Source of the DNA: a virus
DNA length: 50,776 nt
Virus record (IMG/VR): IMGVR_UViG_3300046816_000391
Location: 1 to 50,776 of that record
Strand: one strand, 5' to 3'
The notes beneath the pieces are model-generated. The model was not told the origin of the DNA, did no database searches, and saw only the letters and a list, made by a program, of their open reading frames with translations. Both the position numbers and the translations under genes were made by a program. Below are positions 13,267 through 50,776 of the stretch, piece after piece. The first letter of the stretch is position 1, and the number at the start of each line of letters is the position of its first letter.

Positions 13267-13752
13267 TCAGTCCGATTGAATCGAGTGAAGCGCGGGGGTA
13301 CCCCCTACGCTCGTGTATCTCGTCACCTGAGCCATTCCTGCGTCATTCACAAGCACGGTGATCTCTCCTCCGGTCCAGGCATCGAAGCGCATGGCGAGCT
13401 CTACAGCCTCTCTGGCGCTTCTCCCTATGTACATGGCGGACAGGGCGAAGTCTCGGCCTGATCCCACAGCATGGAAGCTCTCAGCGATGGGCATGAGGAC
13501 GCACTTGCTTTCGATTCGGTAACTGCGTGTTCCGTCGATGAGCAGACCTGAGAAGTCATCGAGCTTGTCGGGCTTCGTTCCGCCATTCAGCCAGTCACGA
13601 ACCAGCAGCACTTCCTGATACTCGCCTGAGCCGCCGTATAAGCGGCCATCGGTGAGTCGGAAGATCTTCTCTGCCGTTCGTTTCAGTCCACCGCCACTCA
13701 CAGCGAGGGTATCGGCGGCCAGTGTCTTGCCGTCCCATGCAATCGTGGTCAC
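13267..13752 (-). CDS. Ntn-hydrolase-fold protein, HslV/proteasome beta-like
   Basis: The 161 residues begin MTTIAWDGKTLAADTLAVSG from a GTG start. After Met removal Thr2 would be the N-terminal nucleophile; the pattern TTIAxDGxTLAAD with a following KIF and LYGGSGEY matches phage-encoded members of the HslV/proteasome superfamily. Such proteins occur in many phages and are annotated as ATP-dependent protease subunit homologues, with no settled role. It overlaps the next upstream gene by four bases and is the last gene of the adsorption cluster before the terminase region. Peptidase activity is inferred from the fold only. Confidence 0.75.
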   Translation of the reverse strand: MTTIAWDGKTLAADTLAVSGGGLKRTAEKIFRLTDGRLYGGSGEYQEVLLVRDWLNGGTKPDKLDDFSGLLIDGTRSYRIESKCVLMPIAESFHAVGSGRDFALSAMYIGRSAREAVELAMRFDAWTGGEITVLVNDAGMAQVTRYTSVGGTPALHSIQSD

Positions 13753-14245: not shown

Positions 14246-15595
14246 TCACAGCTCACTGGCGCTCACCTCTTCCTCTACGAACTGGTCGGGACCTTCGGGT
14301 CTTACGCTGCCCACGTGCTTCTCGGGGCGTCCCTTGACGAAGTCCTGCATGTGCCTGGGCTCCCAGGATTGTTTGCGGACCTTGGCGCCGGTCCATTCGG
14401 TCGTGAGGGTGCCGGCGGGCTGCTTGAAGCCTGTTCGGTCACAGATCTCATAGTTGCTCGGGATCGCGACGGCCTGGGCGTTCTGGGGCCCGAGGTCGAC
14501 AATGATCGGCAGGGGTTCGAAGAGCCCCAGCAGATCACTATGGACATCTTCCAGGGTGAGCTGGATGTAGCCGACATCGGCATAGCCGGTGAGCGCAAAA
14601 CCGGTGATCGAGGCGCTGAAGTCTTCGAGACTCGAGATGAGCTGCGCCACGGTGTGCGTGAGCAGCTGCTGGCCCTGAAAGTTGGCCTGCGCATCATCGA
14701 GCGTGCTGGCGAGTGCACCGGTGCGCACCACTTGCGCCGCCAAGCCGGTGAAGCTTGCGCTCGCATCCTGCAGGGTGACGGCAATCGCACCCACGGCGCC
14801 CGCGGGGTTGGCATGCGTGCCAGCGAAGGCGCTCGTCGCTGCCTGAAGTAAGACACTGATCGAACCACTGGCCGAATCCGGTGGCAGGATGACGCCGGTT
14901 GCCGCGCTGGTCGTATCGGCCAGGGTGACGGCAATAGAGCCGGTGAAGACATCGCTCGCTGTGATCTGCCAGCCGATCCCGATTGGGACCGTGAGGTCCA
15001 CGTATTCGGTCTGGGCAATCGAGCCGACAAACGCCGCACTCGCATCCGCAAGCGTCGGGGCGAGGTTCCCGGTAACCGTGCCTGATACCGCGAAGGTACC
15101 GGTAAAGGTTCCCGTCGCAGTATCCAGCGTGCTGGCAAGAGACCCTGTGGAAAGACCAGGCTCAACATCCTGCCAGTAATGGGCGCCCCAATAGTGCGGA
15201 GCCCAGTAAAACTCCGCCCAGTAGTTACCCAGATTGACCGATGGGGCGAATGTGCCGGTAAAAGCGCAGCTTGCCGCATCGAGCGTGACTGCGATCGTTC
15301 CGGTGGCAGAGCTTGGCTCGTGGTCCTGCCAGTAATGGGCGGACCAATATTGACCGTGCCAGTAATTCTCAGCCCAGTAGTTCCCGAGACTGATCGCCGT
15401 GCCGGTAAAGGCGCTCGTCGCGTTCTCAAGGGTAACTGCAATCGACCCGGTCCGATCAGACGAGCCTATCGAACCGACAAATGCGGCGGCGAACGGATCA
15501 AGAGTAGGAGCTATCGAGCCGCTGTAATTCCCCTGGCTCCAGTAGCTGAGCGGCCAGTAGCTGTCTTGCCAGTATCGGGCAGACCAGTAACGCAC
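14246..15595 (-). CDS. YW-block and GIATL-repeat virion protein
   Basis: The 449 residues start from GTG at 15593-15595. Three blocks of regularly spaced Tyr-Trp pairs (YWxxxYW) lie at residues 3-19, 73-89 and 125-141. Eleven copies of a ~18-residue unit with consensus TGSIAVTLxDATSAFTG follow one another from about residue 24 to 345, for instance RTGSIAVTLENATSAFTGT, ATGTIAVTLDAASCAFTGT and VTGNLAPTLADASAAFVGS. The final ~100 residues differ and contain ITTEWTGAKVR-like and RPEKHVG segments. No enzyme motif, signal or membrane helix is present. The same unit opens the 1147-residue protein encoded upstream. A repeated beta-structure on the virion is likely; the function is unknown. Confidence 0.7.
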   Translation of the reverse strand: MRYWSARYWQDSYWPLSYWSQGNYSGSIAPTLDPFAAAFVGSIGSSDRTGSIAVTLENATSAFTGTAISLGNYWAENYWHGQYWSAHYWQDHEPSSATGTIAVTLDAASCAFTGTFAPSVNLGNYWAEFYWAPHYWGAHYWQDVEPGLSTGSLASTLDTATGTFTGTFAVSGTVTGNLAPTLADASAAFVGSIAQTEYVDLTVPIGIGWQITASDVFTGSIAVTLADTTSAATGVILPPDSASGSISVLLQAATSAFAGTHANPAGAVGAIAVTLQDASASFTGLAAQVVRTGALASTLDDAQANFQGQQLLTHTVAQLISSLEDFSASITGFALTGYADVGYIQLTLEDVHSDLLGLFEPLPIIVDLGPQNAQAVAIPSNYEICDRTGFKQPAGTLTTEWTGAKVRKQSWEPRHMQDFVKGRPEKHVGSVRPEGPDQFVEEEVSASEL

Positions 15596-15599
15596 ATGC

Positions 15600-16247
15600 T
15601 TAGTCCGTGGCGTCCAGTGTGACGGTGGTGCGCTGGTTGCTCGAATCGGTGACCGTGGTCACGCGGGTCTTTACGTTGTCTGCGGTCTTGAAGGTCACCG
15701 TGGAACCACTGATGGAGACACGACCCATGATCACCGCGCTCATGAGACGCATCAGGCCCTTGAACGTGAGCGTGCCATTATTCTCTGTGGTCGTGCCCAT
15801 GAGTTCGGTGACCACTGCGGTATTTCCGGTTGAGGTCAGCGCCACATTCCCGGAAGTGGTGGCAAGCTGCGCAGTCCCCGTGCCATTGGTCAACAGTGCC
15901 CCGGCACTTCCGCTTGCGACATTGGGGAATGCCGTGAGGCCCATGCGCACACCATCATGCACATCCATGGCGACGACGTCGTAGAGCGTGTCCGTGGGAT
16001 CAGCACCCGTCGCCGACGCATGCAGCAACAGAGGCCCGAGTGTGTTGCAGTCCGTGGAGTTGCCGGCCACGGTATACCAGCCATTGGCGATTTCCGTGAC
16101 CGCCCCCGAGGGCGAGGCGAATGAACCCGCCACTTTTCGAATCGTCACCGTGGGCGACAATCCCGTCTTCCCGGTGACATGATCCGTCGAATCGGTCATG
16201 AAGAAGTTGAGCGGGCGAGTCCCACTCAACGGCAGCATGTAGCTCAT
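15600..16247 (-). CDS. Conserved phage structural protein with adsorption-module flavour
   Basis: The 215 residues begin MSYMLPLSGTRPLNFFMTDS. The segments DSTDHVTGKTGLSPTVTI, GAVTEIANGWYTVAGN and TLGPLLLHASATGADPTD match a conserved beta-domain that recurs in tail-fibre-like and baseplate-like proteins of diverse phages. The C-terminal half is Thr-rich and repetitive (TSGNVALTSTGNTAVVTELM). It overlaps the upstream gene by four bases and precedes the YW-repeat gene by four. A surface virion role is inferred; no receptor is predictable. Confidence 0.68.
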   Translation of the reverse strand: MSYMLPLSGTRPLNFFMTDSTDHVTGKTGLSPTVTIRKVAGSFASPSGAVTEIANGWYTVAGNSTDCNTLGPLLLHASATGADPTDTLYDVVAMDVHDGVRMGLTAFPNVASGSAGALLTNGTGTAQLATTSGNVALTSTGNTAVVTELMGTTTENNGTLTFKGLMRLMSAVIMGRVSISGSTVTFKTADNVKTRVTTVTDSSNQRTTVTLDATD

Positions 16248-16966: not shown

Positions 16967-19900
16967 TTATGCAACCCCAGTCACGGCTACGGGGGTAGCG
17001 GGCGCGTTAGGCGTGTCACTCACCGGGTTGTACCCATCCCATGCTCCGACAATCGTGACTCCGGCGGTTGAACCGCCGATGGTTGAATTGAACGCACGCC
17101 ATGTCGCACCACTCGTTTTCTGGATGCCATTCGCCAGCGAATCCTGATTCATCGTCCACGCCCCATCACCGCCCGAGGATTCACCGCCCCAGACGTTGTT
17201 CCAGCTGAAAAGCGTCTGACCCCACCCGTTGCCGCCGTAGAACAGAAGTGGCCGACCCGTCCCGAATCCGGTACAGGTGTTGTGGTAGAAGTACCCGCCG
17301 AACGGGCACAGGTTGACGGGGTCCCCTCCGTTCGAGCTGTCGCCCATTGAGACTGCTGTCACGGTCGAATTGACGTTCACGAAGGTGTTGAACGCGATAT
17401 CGACAGGTCCCACCGGATTGCGCACACGGATGCACGGGCCATCCGAGCCCGCCTGCGTCACCGTGAAGGTGTTCCACAGCACCTTGTGCAAACACTGATT
17501 GATCGTCGTGGGCGGCGATTCGAGTTTGCCGTCGAGATTGATCAGGCGCTGAGTCGTAGAGTTCGCGCCGTTCGAAATCGCGTTGTCATGGATGAACGCA
17601 CTGATGGGCGCGGAGAACGCCGACAGTCCGTAGGCACTATGGAAAAATGCCTGCAGACACGTGCCCGTCGTCGTGAACGTGTTGGCCCACGCCTCGTAAA
17701 CGCCGCACATCCCGAACATGCCGGAGCGATGCGCCACCGAGGACATCGTGCACGTGTTGTCGTATGCCAGGAAGTTCGTGCAGTACGCCACCATCGATAC
17801 GCCCTCATCGGGCGATGCCACCGGATAGGTGTTGAGGCACGTGTTACCAAAGATTCGTGCGCCATTGATGTTGCAGCCGTTGCCGCCGTTGCCATCAAGC
17901 CCCGCATTCTGCCGGCAGACGAAGTTGTTTCTGGAAAAGAAACAGCCCGTGCCGATCGAGCTCGGCAAGCGGATATTCGATCCCGTTCCAGAGGCATGCG
18001 AGAAAGCAATGCCATCGATCCAGACATTCGTGACGCCACTCGCCAACACAATTCCGTGCACGCCCGAGCCGTGCGTCAACGTGCGCTTCGTCACACCGTC
18101 GTCGTTGAAGCCCGTCAGGTAAACATTGCTCGCGCTGATTGTGATCGGGCCCGTCGCGCCGCTCGCTGCAATCCGATACTCCCCGGCAGAGGTGATGTTG
18201 TTCCCACCAGGAACCGCGCTATTGGCCCGCGTCGCAGGGACATAGACCGCCGCTGTGCCGGCAAACTCCGCGCTATCGGCACTCTCGTTGCCGGCACTGT
18301 CTATCGTACGGACGCGGACATAACAGGCGCCGCCCACCGCAAGTCCCGTGATGCGACACTCGGTCGCAAGGCGCTGCGCAGTAGTCGAGAGGTCGAGCCC
18401 CGCAATCAGGTTCGATGCGCCCGGTGTCGTTCCTGCAAAAATCCTGAATGTCTTGAGGTCGTGCAGGTTCGAGGTGTCGGTGTTCGTCGCGGGCCGACCC
18501 CAGCGGGGCGCCACGCGCGCAATGCCTGCACCGACGTCCAGCTGCAAAATGCCGCCCGAAATCGACGCCGAGAATGCGGTGGGAGTATTCGACAGAACAA
18601 GCCCAGTGCCAGCCGCAAGCGTCACGGACGTGACAGGGGCGCCGTTGTTCGTGACCGGGTCGTGCGTGCCGACCAGGCGATAAAATATGCCGCCGAGGTT
18701 TACCGAGCTGTAGGTGGCACCTGGCGCGGCCCACAGATAGATGCCGTTGACGCAGTCGCGCCGATAGATACCAATTCCATTTGCGCCGGCCTGATAGCGC
18801 GGCGTCCACTGCGGCGGATCGATCGCCGGACCCAGAGCGAACGTCTTCTCGTCATAAACGACCGAGCCCAATTCCTCCGCGAGATAGCCACTCGTGAGGT
18901 GCAGGTACAGGTAGGTACCCGTGAGACCTGCGATGCAATGCCAGTAGCGCATCACATCGTAGGAGGTCGCCGATGGCAGTTGAATTTCGAGCACGCCGAG
19001 CTTGGCGCCCCGGTAGGCATCCACCTGCACCTTGATCGCGTTCAGCAACGACGTTGCGGTGGAGCCCCGAAAGCCGTTGACCCACTCATCGATGTTCTCC
19101 ATCAGGCCGCCGTCGTATTGCTGATCGAGCGGCTGACCAGCAAGGCCGGCCGGATACCAGACGGGCCAGTCCGTGGAATTAGCGAGCAGAAAAGAGTTCG
19201 CAGGAGCGAGCGATCGCCAGTACGCGCAACTGCTCGCGTGACTGGAATTGATCAGGCTGATGTTGGCGGCGCTGGACACCGCTTCTGATACGCCATCAAC
19301 GTTGTAGTCGCCCGCCGAACGCTCGCGCGCGTAAATGTTGTCTTCGTAGCGACCGTCGAGGGCGGGCGTGGCAGTGACGTTCTGATTGTTGACGCCGTCG
19401 CTGAAGACACCGCCGGTGTACAGCAGCTTGTAGTCCCAGCGCGCCTTCCACTTCGATGCGATATCGCCGGCAACCGGCGGGCAAGAGGTCGTGTAATTGG
19501 GCTTCGACTGATCGCTCTGACTGCCCTGAATCTTGCCGGTGTGCGTCAATCCGTTCGTGTAGACGAACCACTGATTTGCAGTGAGCTTGTTGTAGACCTC
19601 CCAATTCGCCTGCGGCGCGGTACCCCACGAATCGAACGCATCGGTCGAGAGCGTGTAGGGAATGATCTTCGAGCCGATCGTGCTCGCCGCTTTTACCGCG
19701 TTAACCTTCGATTGCAGAGTTCCGCGGCTATTTTCCCAGCCGGGCCAGTACGAAATGATGTTGACGTGAGTAGCGGCAAGCGCCGCATTCGTGGAGTTCG
19801 CGGTACCGCCGAGCGCATAGGAGCCAAAGCGCGGATAGTCAGGATTGTAGAACCCGCCCTGCGCAACCCCCGTCGTCTTTGCGCTGGCTATCGTGCTGTA

Positions 19901-20410
19901 GCCAGAAGAGTTCCCCGCCACATCATAGGATCGAACGCGATAGAACTGCGTTGTCCCGACCGGCAGACCTGTATCGATAAAGGTCTGCGCGGTATTTTGA
20001 TAGATCTGCGTCCACGCCGTTGCGCCATCGGCACTGCGCTCGAGCTTGTATCCTGCAAGACCTGACCCGCCGGTATCGGAGGAACTTCCCCATGAAGGCT
20101 GCAGAGAAGTGTCCCCCAACACCGCAACCGTCAAAGCACCCGGGACCGTGGGCGCCGTGAAATCCGATTGCGAGCTGCCCTGCAAGGCCGCTGTCGCATT
20201 GTCGAGTATTGAGACGAACGTGCCGATCCGATTCGGATTGGCGATGAATGCGCCCATCACCTGCGAGGCGTGATCGGCGAGCCGTGCCGCAATCGTCCCA
20301 GTCCTGCCTGCAGGCAGCACATGCGTACCTGCGATGGATGCCGTCGAATCCGCTAAAGTTGACTGCATCAGCCCAATGAGGACTGAACGATCAACAAATC
20401 GAATCGGCAT
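16967..20410 (-). CDS. Large modular adsorption protein: repeats, Fn3, glycosidase-like barrel, Fn3, beta-helix
   Basis: The 1147 residues split into modules. Residues 1-85 hold three degenerate copies of the GIATL repeat (e.g. RTGTIAARLADHASQVMGAF). About 88-180 is a fibronectin type III domain (TAPTVPGALTVAVLGDTSLQ, then FYRVRSYDVAGNSS). About 185-560 looks like a TIM-barrel glycosidase-like domain (HVNIISYWPGWENSRGT, SKIIPYTLS, GGLMENIDEWVNGF). A second Fn3-like domain lies near 600-700 (CYVRVRTIDSAGNESAD). About 730-1140 is a Cys-containing right-handed beta-helix (GCFFSRNNFVC, NGARIFGNTCLN, DIAFNTFVNVN). Polysaccharide binding or cleavage is plausible. It shares a base with the upstream gene. 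Confidence 0.75.
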   Translation of the reverse strand: MPIRFVDRSVLIGLMQSTLADSTASIAGTHVLPAGRTGTIAARLADHASQVMGAFIANPNRIGTFVSILDNATAALQGSSQSDFTAPTVPGALTVAVLGDTSLQPSWGSSSDTGGSGLAGYKLERSADGATAWTQIYQNTAQTFIDTGLPVGTTQFYRVRSYDVAGNSSGYSTIASAKTTGVAQGGFYNPDYPRFGSYALGGTANSTNAALAATHVNIISYWPGWENSRGTLQSKVNAVKAASTIGSKIIPYTLSTDAFDSWGTAPQANWEVYNKLTANQWFVYTNGLTHTGKIQGSQSDQSKPNYTTSCPPVAGDIASKWKARWDYKLLYTGGVFSDGVNNQNVTATPALDGRYEDNIYARERSAGDYNVDGVSEAVSSAANISLINSSHASSCAYWRSLAPANSFLLANSTDWPVWYPAGLAGQPLDQQYDGGLMENIDEWVNGFRGSTATSLLNAIKVQVDAYRGAKLGVLEIQLPSATSYDVMRYWHCIAGLTGTYLYLHLTSGYLAEELGSVVYDEKTFALGPAIDPPQWTPRYQAGANGIGIYRRDCVNGIYLWAAPGATYSSVNLGGIFYRLVGTHDPVTNNGAPVTSVTLAAGTGLVLSNTPTAFSASISGGILQLDVGAGIARVAPRWGRPATNTDTSNLHDLKTFRIFAGTTPGASNLIAGLDLSTTAQRLATECRITGLAVGGACYVRVRTIDSAGNESADSAEFAGTAAVYVPATRANSAVPGGNNITSAGEYRIAASGATGPITISASNVYLTGFNDDGVTKRTLTHGSGVHGIVLASGVTNVWIDGIAFSHASGTGSNIRLPSSIGTGCFFSRNNFVCRQNAGLDGNGGNGCNINGARIFGNTCLNTYPVASPDEGVSMVAYCTNFLAYDNTCTMSSVAHRSGMFGMCGVYEAWANTFTTTGTCLQAFFHSAYGLSAFSAPISAFIHDNAISNGANSTTQRLINLDGKLESPPTTINQCLHKVLWNTFTVTQAGSDGPCIRVRNPVGPVDIAFNTFVNVNSTVTAVSMGDSSNGGDPVNLCPFGGYFYHNTCTGFGTGRPLLFYGGNGWGQTLFSWNNVWGGESSGGDGAWTMNQDSLANGIQKTSGATWRAFNSTIGGSTAGVTIVGAWDGYNPVSDTPNAPATPVAVTGVA

Positions 20411-50332: not shown

Positions 50333-50769
50333 TTAAAGTGACTCGTGCGAATGTCGGCGACGATGTGAATGCGGTCATCGGCGCTGTTGTTGATGACTTC
50401 GTGCTCGAGATCGTTCCGAAAGAACCATGCTTCCCCGGTTCTCATGCAGACTTCTTCCTCTTCACAGCGAAAGAGAGAGCCCGGCAATCCCTGCACGCAC
50501 AGGTGAAACCGCGAGTAATACGGCTCGTTGTCGTAGTACTTCGTGAGATCCCCTCCGATGTCTTTGTGCGGCAGGATGCGATTTCCCGGAGGCAAGCGAG
50601 AAACCAGCGCCCGCCCCAGTCGTTCTCCCTGAACCATTACCATGAGCGTCATGACGAGCGCCCGGGCAGCCGGAAGTTGCGACCATGCTGGGTAATTGAT
50701 CGACTCACGATGATCGACAAAAACTCCCGGATCGACCGACGCCTGACGGCATTTCTCAAGGTCATTCAT
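50329..50769 (-). CDS. 2OG-Fe(II) aspartyl/asparaginyl beta-hydroxylase-like protein, catalytic part (starts at 267 across the join)
   Basis: The linear frame from ATG 50769 gives 146 residues, but the gene in the circle begins at 267 and has 195 residues. In the full numbering RLPPGNRILPHKDIGGD gives the iron ligands His117 and Asp119, and FFRNDLEHEVINNSADDR gives His172; Arg182 is in the 2-oxoglutarate-binding place. RFHLCVQG and MRTGEAWFFRND are further family motifs. Members hydroxylate Asp/Asn residues in proteins; phage copies are of unknown target. It overlaps GNAT by four bases. The right terminal repeat (50650-50776) lies within it. Confidence 0.85.
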   Translation of the reverse strand: MNDLEKCRQASVDPGVFVDHRESINYPAWSQLPAARALVMTLMVMVQGERLGRALVSRLPPGNRILPHKDIGGDLTKYYDNEPYYSRFHLCVQGLPGSLFRCEEEEVCMRTGEAWFFRNDLEHEVINNSADDRIHIVADIRTSHFK

Positions 50770-50776
50770 CCGCAGC
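50650..50776. repeat. Terminal direct repeat, right copy
   Basis: Identical to 1-127 over all 127 bases, marking circular closure. It lies in the hydroxylase gene. Removing one copy restores the full frame. Confidence 0.95.

Follow-up and report, generated by a model that had tools for sequence, protein, structure and literature searches.

A modular phage protein with three aromatic pentad quartets, eleven short repeat units and a candidate docking partner encoded just upstream

Repetitive modular proteins are already a known kind of phage product, and those of the virion account for a large share of phage genomes that lacks annotation. The head decoration proteins of the T4 Hoc type carry variable beta modules and attach to the particle through a conserved C-terminal domain. 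The 449-residue protein described here (P), known from sequence alone, resembles them in general idea. However, Hoc-type proteins have Ig-like domains, whereas a Pfam search finds none in P. Pentapeptide repeat proteins such as MfpA and AlbG share the five-residue period of the aromatic blocks of P, but their repeat is A(D/N)LXX, whereas P has aromatic pairs, no Pfam match and no significant Foldseek match. The phage protein family phrog_28581 (for example HTVC027P gp65 and CRP-901 gp53) has in common with P a domain of about 70 residues and a location in the late structural region.

Two marine phage proteins combine elements similar to those of P. In gp68 of Pelagibacter phage HTVC027P three blocks of W pentads alternate with a TGxxxTAxLGSV repeat. 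However, this protein uses W only, in blocks of three, its repeat sequence is different and no anchor-like domain is seen. Roseobacter phage CRP-901 gp53 shares with P its short Gly-rich repeats and a terminal run of aromatic pentads, WGNNAWGNGTWGNGL, but the common domain is N-terminal and the pentads are C-terminal, making it a mirror image of P. W pentad blocks and short Gly-rich repeats are found in both (L208:5965-6909 and L214:6993-7958 for CRP-901 gp53 and HTVC027P gp68, respectively). These two proteins and one from L073 combine pentad blocks with short beta-like repeats, a likeness read from the sequences only; the two marine cases suggest that the architecture is broader than P.

We identified P in IMG/VR virus record IMGVR_UViG_3300046816_000391, all 50,776 nucleotides of which were analyzed (the window). 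The window represents the genome of a phage and encodes portal, large terminase, capsid, head-closure and ejection proteins. The gene for P (14246..15595, minus strand, as are all features given below for the window) has a GTG start 4 nt past the stop of an upstream gene, here called gene A. It lies between fibre-like genes and a block encoding an HslV-like peptidase, TerL and the portal protein. The fibre-like genes include one for an 1147-residue protein (16967-20410) that consists of N-terminal units of the GIATL type, an FnIII-like domain and then a long unassigned region. The units, about three additional copies at its N terminus (20156..20377), are similar to those of P, and the FnIII-like domain matches titin chains as well as Hoc-like and tail fibre J PHROGs. 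Given this setting, P is likely a virus-particle protein.

P consists of elements in the order YW4-u1-u2-YW4-u3-YW4-u4-u5-linker-u6..u11, followed by a C-terminal domain of about 70 residues. Each YW4 element is a quartet of YWxxx pentads, recognized by residue spacing and DNA pattern: quartet 1 at residues 3-19 (YWSARYWQDSYWPLSYW; 15539..15589), quartet 2 at residues 73-89 (15329..15379) and quartet 3 at residues 125-141 (15173..15223). The twelve YW pairs begin at residues 3, 8, 13 and 18, at 73, 78, 83 and 88, and at 125, 130, 135 and 140, an exact period of five. YWxxxYW occurs nine times in P compared with a maximum of one in 20,000 shuffles, and the DNA pattern TAYTGG-N9-TAYTGG is found nine times in the window, every time inside gene P, with none expected. 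There are exactly eleven copies of the repeat unit, with the consensus TGSIAVTLDDATSAFTG; the pattern [GA].[IL]...L.{8}G matches P in 11 places and reaches at most 4 in shuffles. The units were located by this pattern at 15398..15523 (units 1-2), 15251..15304 (unit 3), 15020..15148 (units 4-5) and 14522..14944 (units 6-11). They start at residues 25, 49, 98, 150, 175, 218, 243, 268, 292, 316 and 341, and advance in steps of 24-25 residues wherever no YW block intervenes.

The sequence-only reading from which this analysis started had described three blocks of YWxxxYW alternating with eleven units. Both elements are confirmed, with four pairs in each block, but the alternation holds for the first units only, as u6 to u11 form an array free of YW blocks. 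The very regular spacing it had noted, one aromatic pair per five residues, is exact in all three blocks and far above shuffles. Its description of P as a two-element protein overlooked the third element, the C-terminal domain at residues 380-449.

The units of P are diverged at the nucleotide level (mean identity only 50%, maximum 70%), and gene P yields no array in Tandem Repeats Finder. The array is thus either old or maintained at the protein level rather than a product of recent DNA slippage. Searches of Pfam, PHROGs, NCBIfam and PDB sequences with P return nothing significant for the repeats and no Pfam family at E<=1; neither element is covered in these libraries, in agreement with the sequence-only reading, which recognised no described family with both. 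Neither the quartet nor the units recover a relative when GTDB genome contigs are scanned with them, and a literature search for such repeats found no pertinent description. One relative was identified in L089, a contig of an unrelated phage. It encodes a 334-residue protein, cut at the contig end, that is homologous to P (blastp E 6e-35); in it (Y/F)W pairs form three quartets and the units number about eight. Identity to P in quartets and units is ~27-34%. The terminase, portal and coat-like genes of L089 lie downstream of this gene, an arrangement resembling that around P. The combination of pentad blocks with short beta-like repeats is therefore not unique to P, and both elements are conserved in a relative. 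The L089 protein lacks the C-terminal anchor domain, and the contig truncates the gene upstream of it. The three-part design of quartets, units and anchor is thus known once.

AlphaFold models of the units show two short strands each, and beta hairpins in series are weakly predicted, at low confidence (pLDDT ~54), for the array of units 6-11. The YW quartets have pLDDT values of 31-37 and no usable structure. Foldseek finds no significant match for either of two models, including fibres, curli and pentapeptide solenoids, the models being mostly of low confidence. For these reasons no fold name can be assigned. The possibility of a new repeat fold raised from the sequence is compatible with the lack of a family match, but the low-confidence models and the Foldseek result fit either outcome.

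The C-terminal domain (residues 380-449; 14249..14458) is found in other phages. A tblastn search links it to short proteins of two Manatee Spring phages (2e-7 and 1e-3), and a stepwise search from it reaches phages of Alcaligenes, Roseobacter, Pelagibacter and Planktothrix, in which it is encoded close to genes for major capsid, cement or tail-adaptor proteins. The marine members are included in phrog_28581, a family of unknown function. By alignment of about 70 residues (G..W.G..V....WEPRHPQDFV) P belongs with phrog_28581 and the anchor-domain family, a membership that runs via intermediates, the direct match being weak (E 0.086). Some members of the family (L140-L143), though not all, have zinc-ribbon-like CxxC...CxxH ligands. 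In P the motif is degenerate: the aligned residues are ICDRTG...VRKQSW, and the first Cys alone is retained. AlphaFold is confident at residues 381-410 (pLDDT 91-94) and of low confidence outside residues 380-420; an anchor profile search found no relative with a known structure. The three nearest relatives by TerL (70-81% TerL identity) encode the domain at the same locus in proteins of 413, 194 and 87 residues, with the N-terminal part different or absent. This comparison indicates that the C-terminal domain is the constant part of the protein and the N-terminal region is exchangeable. An Ig-like domain considered for the N-terminal part of L125 was dropped, as Pfam does not support it. Judging from its setting, the C-terminal domain probably ties P to the virion.

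We scanned the sequence collection for quartets with the pattern TAYTGG-N9-TAYTGG-N9-TAYTGG. Many raw matches are out-of-frame simple repeats; these were removed by eye, and loci with a plausible gene start were retained. At least about twenty contigs have a gene that begins in a quartet. An alignment of 29 first quartets defines them as four N-terminal [YF][WFY]xxx pentads, and P conforms. As an unnamed sequence motif, quartets of aromatic YW, YF or YY pentads occur widely among uncultured phages. Their number, spacing and N-terminal place are constant across very different phages, while the remainder of the protein varies. Most quartet proteins have a single quartet and no P-like repeats, showing that the quartet is independent of the repeat array.

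The gene directly preceding the quartet gene nearly always ends in a conserved domain of about 60 residues, GKSSGGG..RITATVDANGNRTAVTLDG, which we term the partner domain. In the window this is gene A (15600..16247; 215 residues), identified by the gene pairing, whose C-terminal partner domain (..STVTFKTADNVKTRVTTVTDSSNQRTTVTLDATD; 15603..15779) is conserved across phages. The final 56 residues align with the copy in L010 (blastp E 1.3e-13), so that P, too, has the partner domain immediately upstream. At 15 or more loci of the YW survey, in addition to the window, the gene directly upstream ends in this domain. At these loci the quartet gene starts a few bases from the partner-gene stop, and stop/start overlap is common. 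The pairing is also seen in an annotated phage record (L223). The libraries searched contain no family for the quartet and none for the partner domain. A likeness between the N-terminal part of gene A and the baseplate domain of BppU was considered and is unsupported by Pfam or PDB. The exception to the pairing is a set of near-identical MWSNQYWAKTYW quartet genes that are preceded by a different gene. In L092 and L102 the MWSNQYWAKTYW gene follows a gene of 761-776 residues that lacks the partner domain and appears portal-like by eye.

In a reverse test the partner domain was the sole query. It recovered 53 loci, many of them near-identical, which were reduced to 17 distinct ones. An aromatic-pentad gene comes next in 14 of the 17, compared with 2 of 6,707 background ORFs. 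These next genes start with YW, YF, YY or W-alone pentads; the failures are L231, L242 and L232, the last with a looser aromatic run. Start codons were chosen with a preference for the aromatic pattern, which inflates the exact odds; however, each locus offers only a few candidate starts, too few to account for a gap of this size. Quartet and partner domain thus adjoin far beyond chance in uncultured phages. However, no covariation between partner-domain and quartet identity is seen over 29 pairs (Mantel rho 0.10, with 425 of 2,000 permutations as high), and the adjacency can reflect an inherited operon, which counts against a docking function.

The nearest relatives offer a further comparison. 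Partner domain and quartets occur together in the window. The aromatic-pentad DNA pattern is absent from the records of all three relatives, two of the three have no match to a gene A profile, and a full gene A is found in none. In the third record (L127), the ends of which overlap by 90 bases, the gene A homologue retains the N-terminal domain and ends without the partner domain. The joint absence of quartets and partner domain suits a functional link between them, with few cases to draw on.

The element architecture, the common C-terminal domain and the gene pairing are features of the sequences themselves. The constant number, spacing and N-terminal place of the quartets, together with the single partner, make a protein-protein interface the simplest account of the quartet. 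The reading we favour, with a likelihood that falls somewhat short of even, is that P is a modular virion accessory protein in which quartets spaced by repeat units dock the partner and a C-terminal anchor holds P in place. An N-terminal quartet of about 20 residues would bind the product of the gene just upstream, at its C-terminal domain. In P each quartet would dock one C-terminal domain of the gene A protein, giving room for as many as three copies of that protein. The eleven 18-residue units may act as a spacer or stalk between docking motifs, and the C-terminal domain of about 70 residues would anchor P on the virion. That quartets serve docking at all is plausible without being probable. 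It is doubtful that four consecutive aromatic pentads constitute a hitherto undescribed docking code used by tailed phages, tripled and hairpin-spaced here as a multivalent scaffold. Through the pairing, what had been a row of hypothetical genes becomes an interacting pair that can be tested, with a handle for annotating both modules, and the triple-quartet P is a natural multivalent reagent for testing the interaction.

Stacked YW pairs could instead form a host-facing surface that binds glycans, which would make P an accessory fibre for receptor binding or decoration. Carbohydrate platforms typically contain aromatic pairs, P is located among fibre-like genes, and the neighbouring 1147-residue protein combines P-type units with an FnIII-like domain. 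However, the invariant quartet format and the single partner gene fit an internal interface better, and Pfam carbohydrate-binding (CBM), choline-binding repeat (CW_binding) and pentapeptide models have no match in P. We therefore consider this reading unlikely. The sugar-binding or fibre-forming surface proposed in the sequence-only reading is without direct support, and pairing with one upstream partner domain indicates a protein-protein interface instead.

It is also improbable that P self-assembles, as a trimeric beta-structured fibre or an amyloid-like beta roll, with the partner gene merely co-produced. The five-residue and ~25-residue periods of P are regular, and the models, which are all-beta with two strands in each unit but of low confidence, would suit such an assembly. 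So would a 463-residue protein in L222 (L222:64-1452), a near-ideal array of 18 units (TGTLATTLDDSVLAATGTET) with a period of 21 or 23-24 residues, which has no match in cultured phages, possibly owing to the low-complexity filter. However, fold comparison with fibres, curli and pentapeptide solenoids gave nothing significant, and the single quartet of most quartet proteins occurs without such repeats. Finally, that P is largely a disordered low-complexity spacer, its patterns being compositional drift and the C-terminal domain alone mattering, might explain why three relatives retain that domain alone or with other N-terminal parts and why confidence is low outside it, but is very unlikely given the homologous quartets and units in L089 and a quartet-partner pairing kept in many phages.

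Elsewhere in the window, the HslV-family peptidase-like gene (13267-13752) adjoins the terminase genes and has 119 relatives in viral contigs. The record is probably a complete genome, since an exact direct terminal repeat of 127 bases occupies positions 1-127 and 50650-50776.
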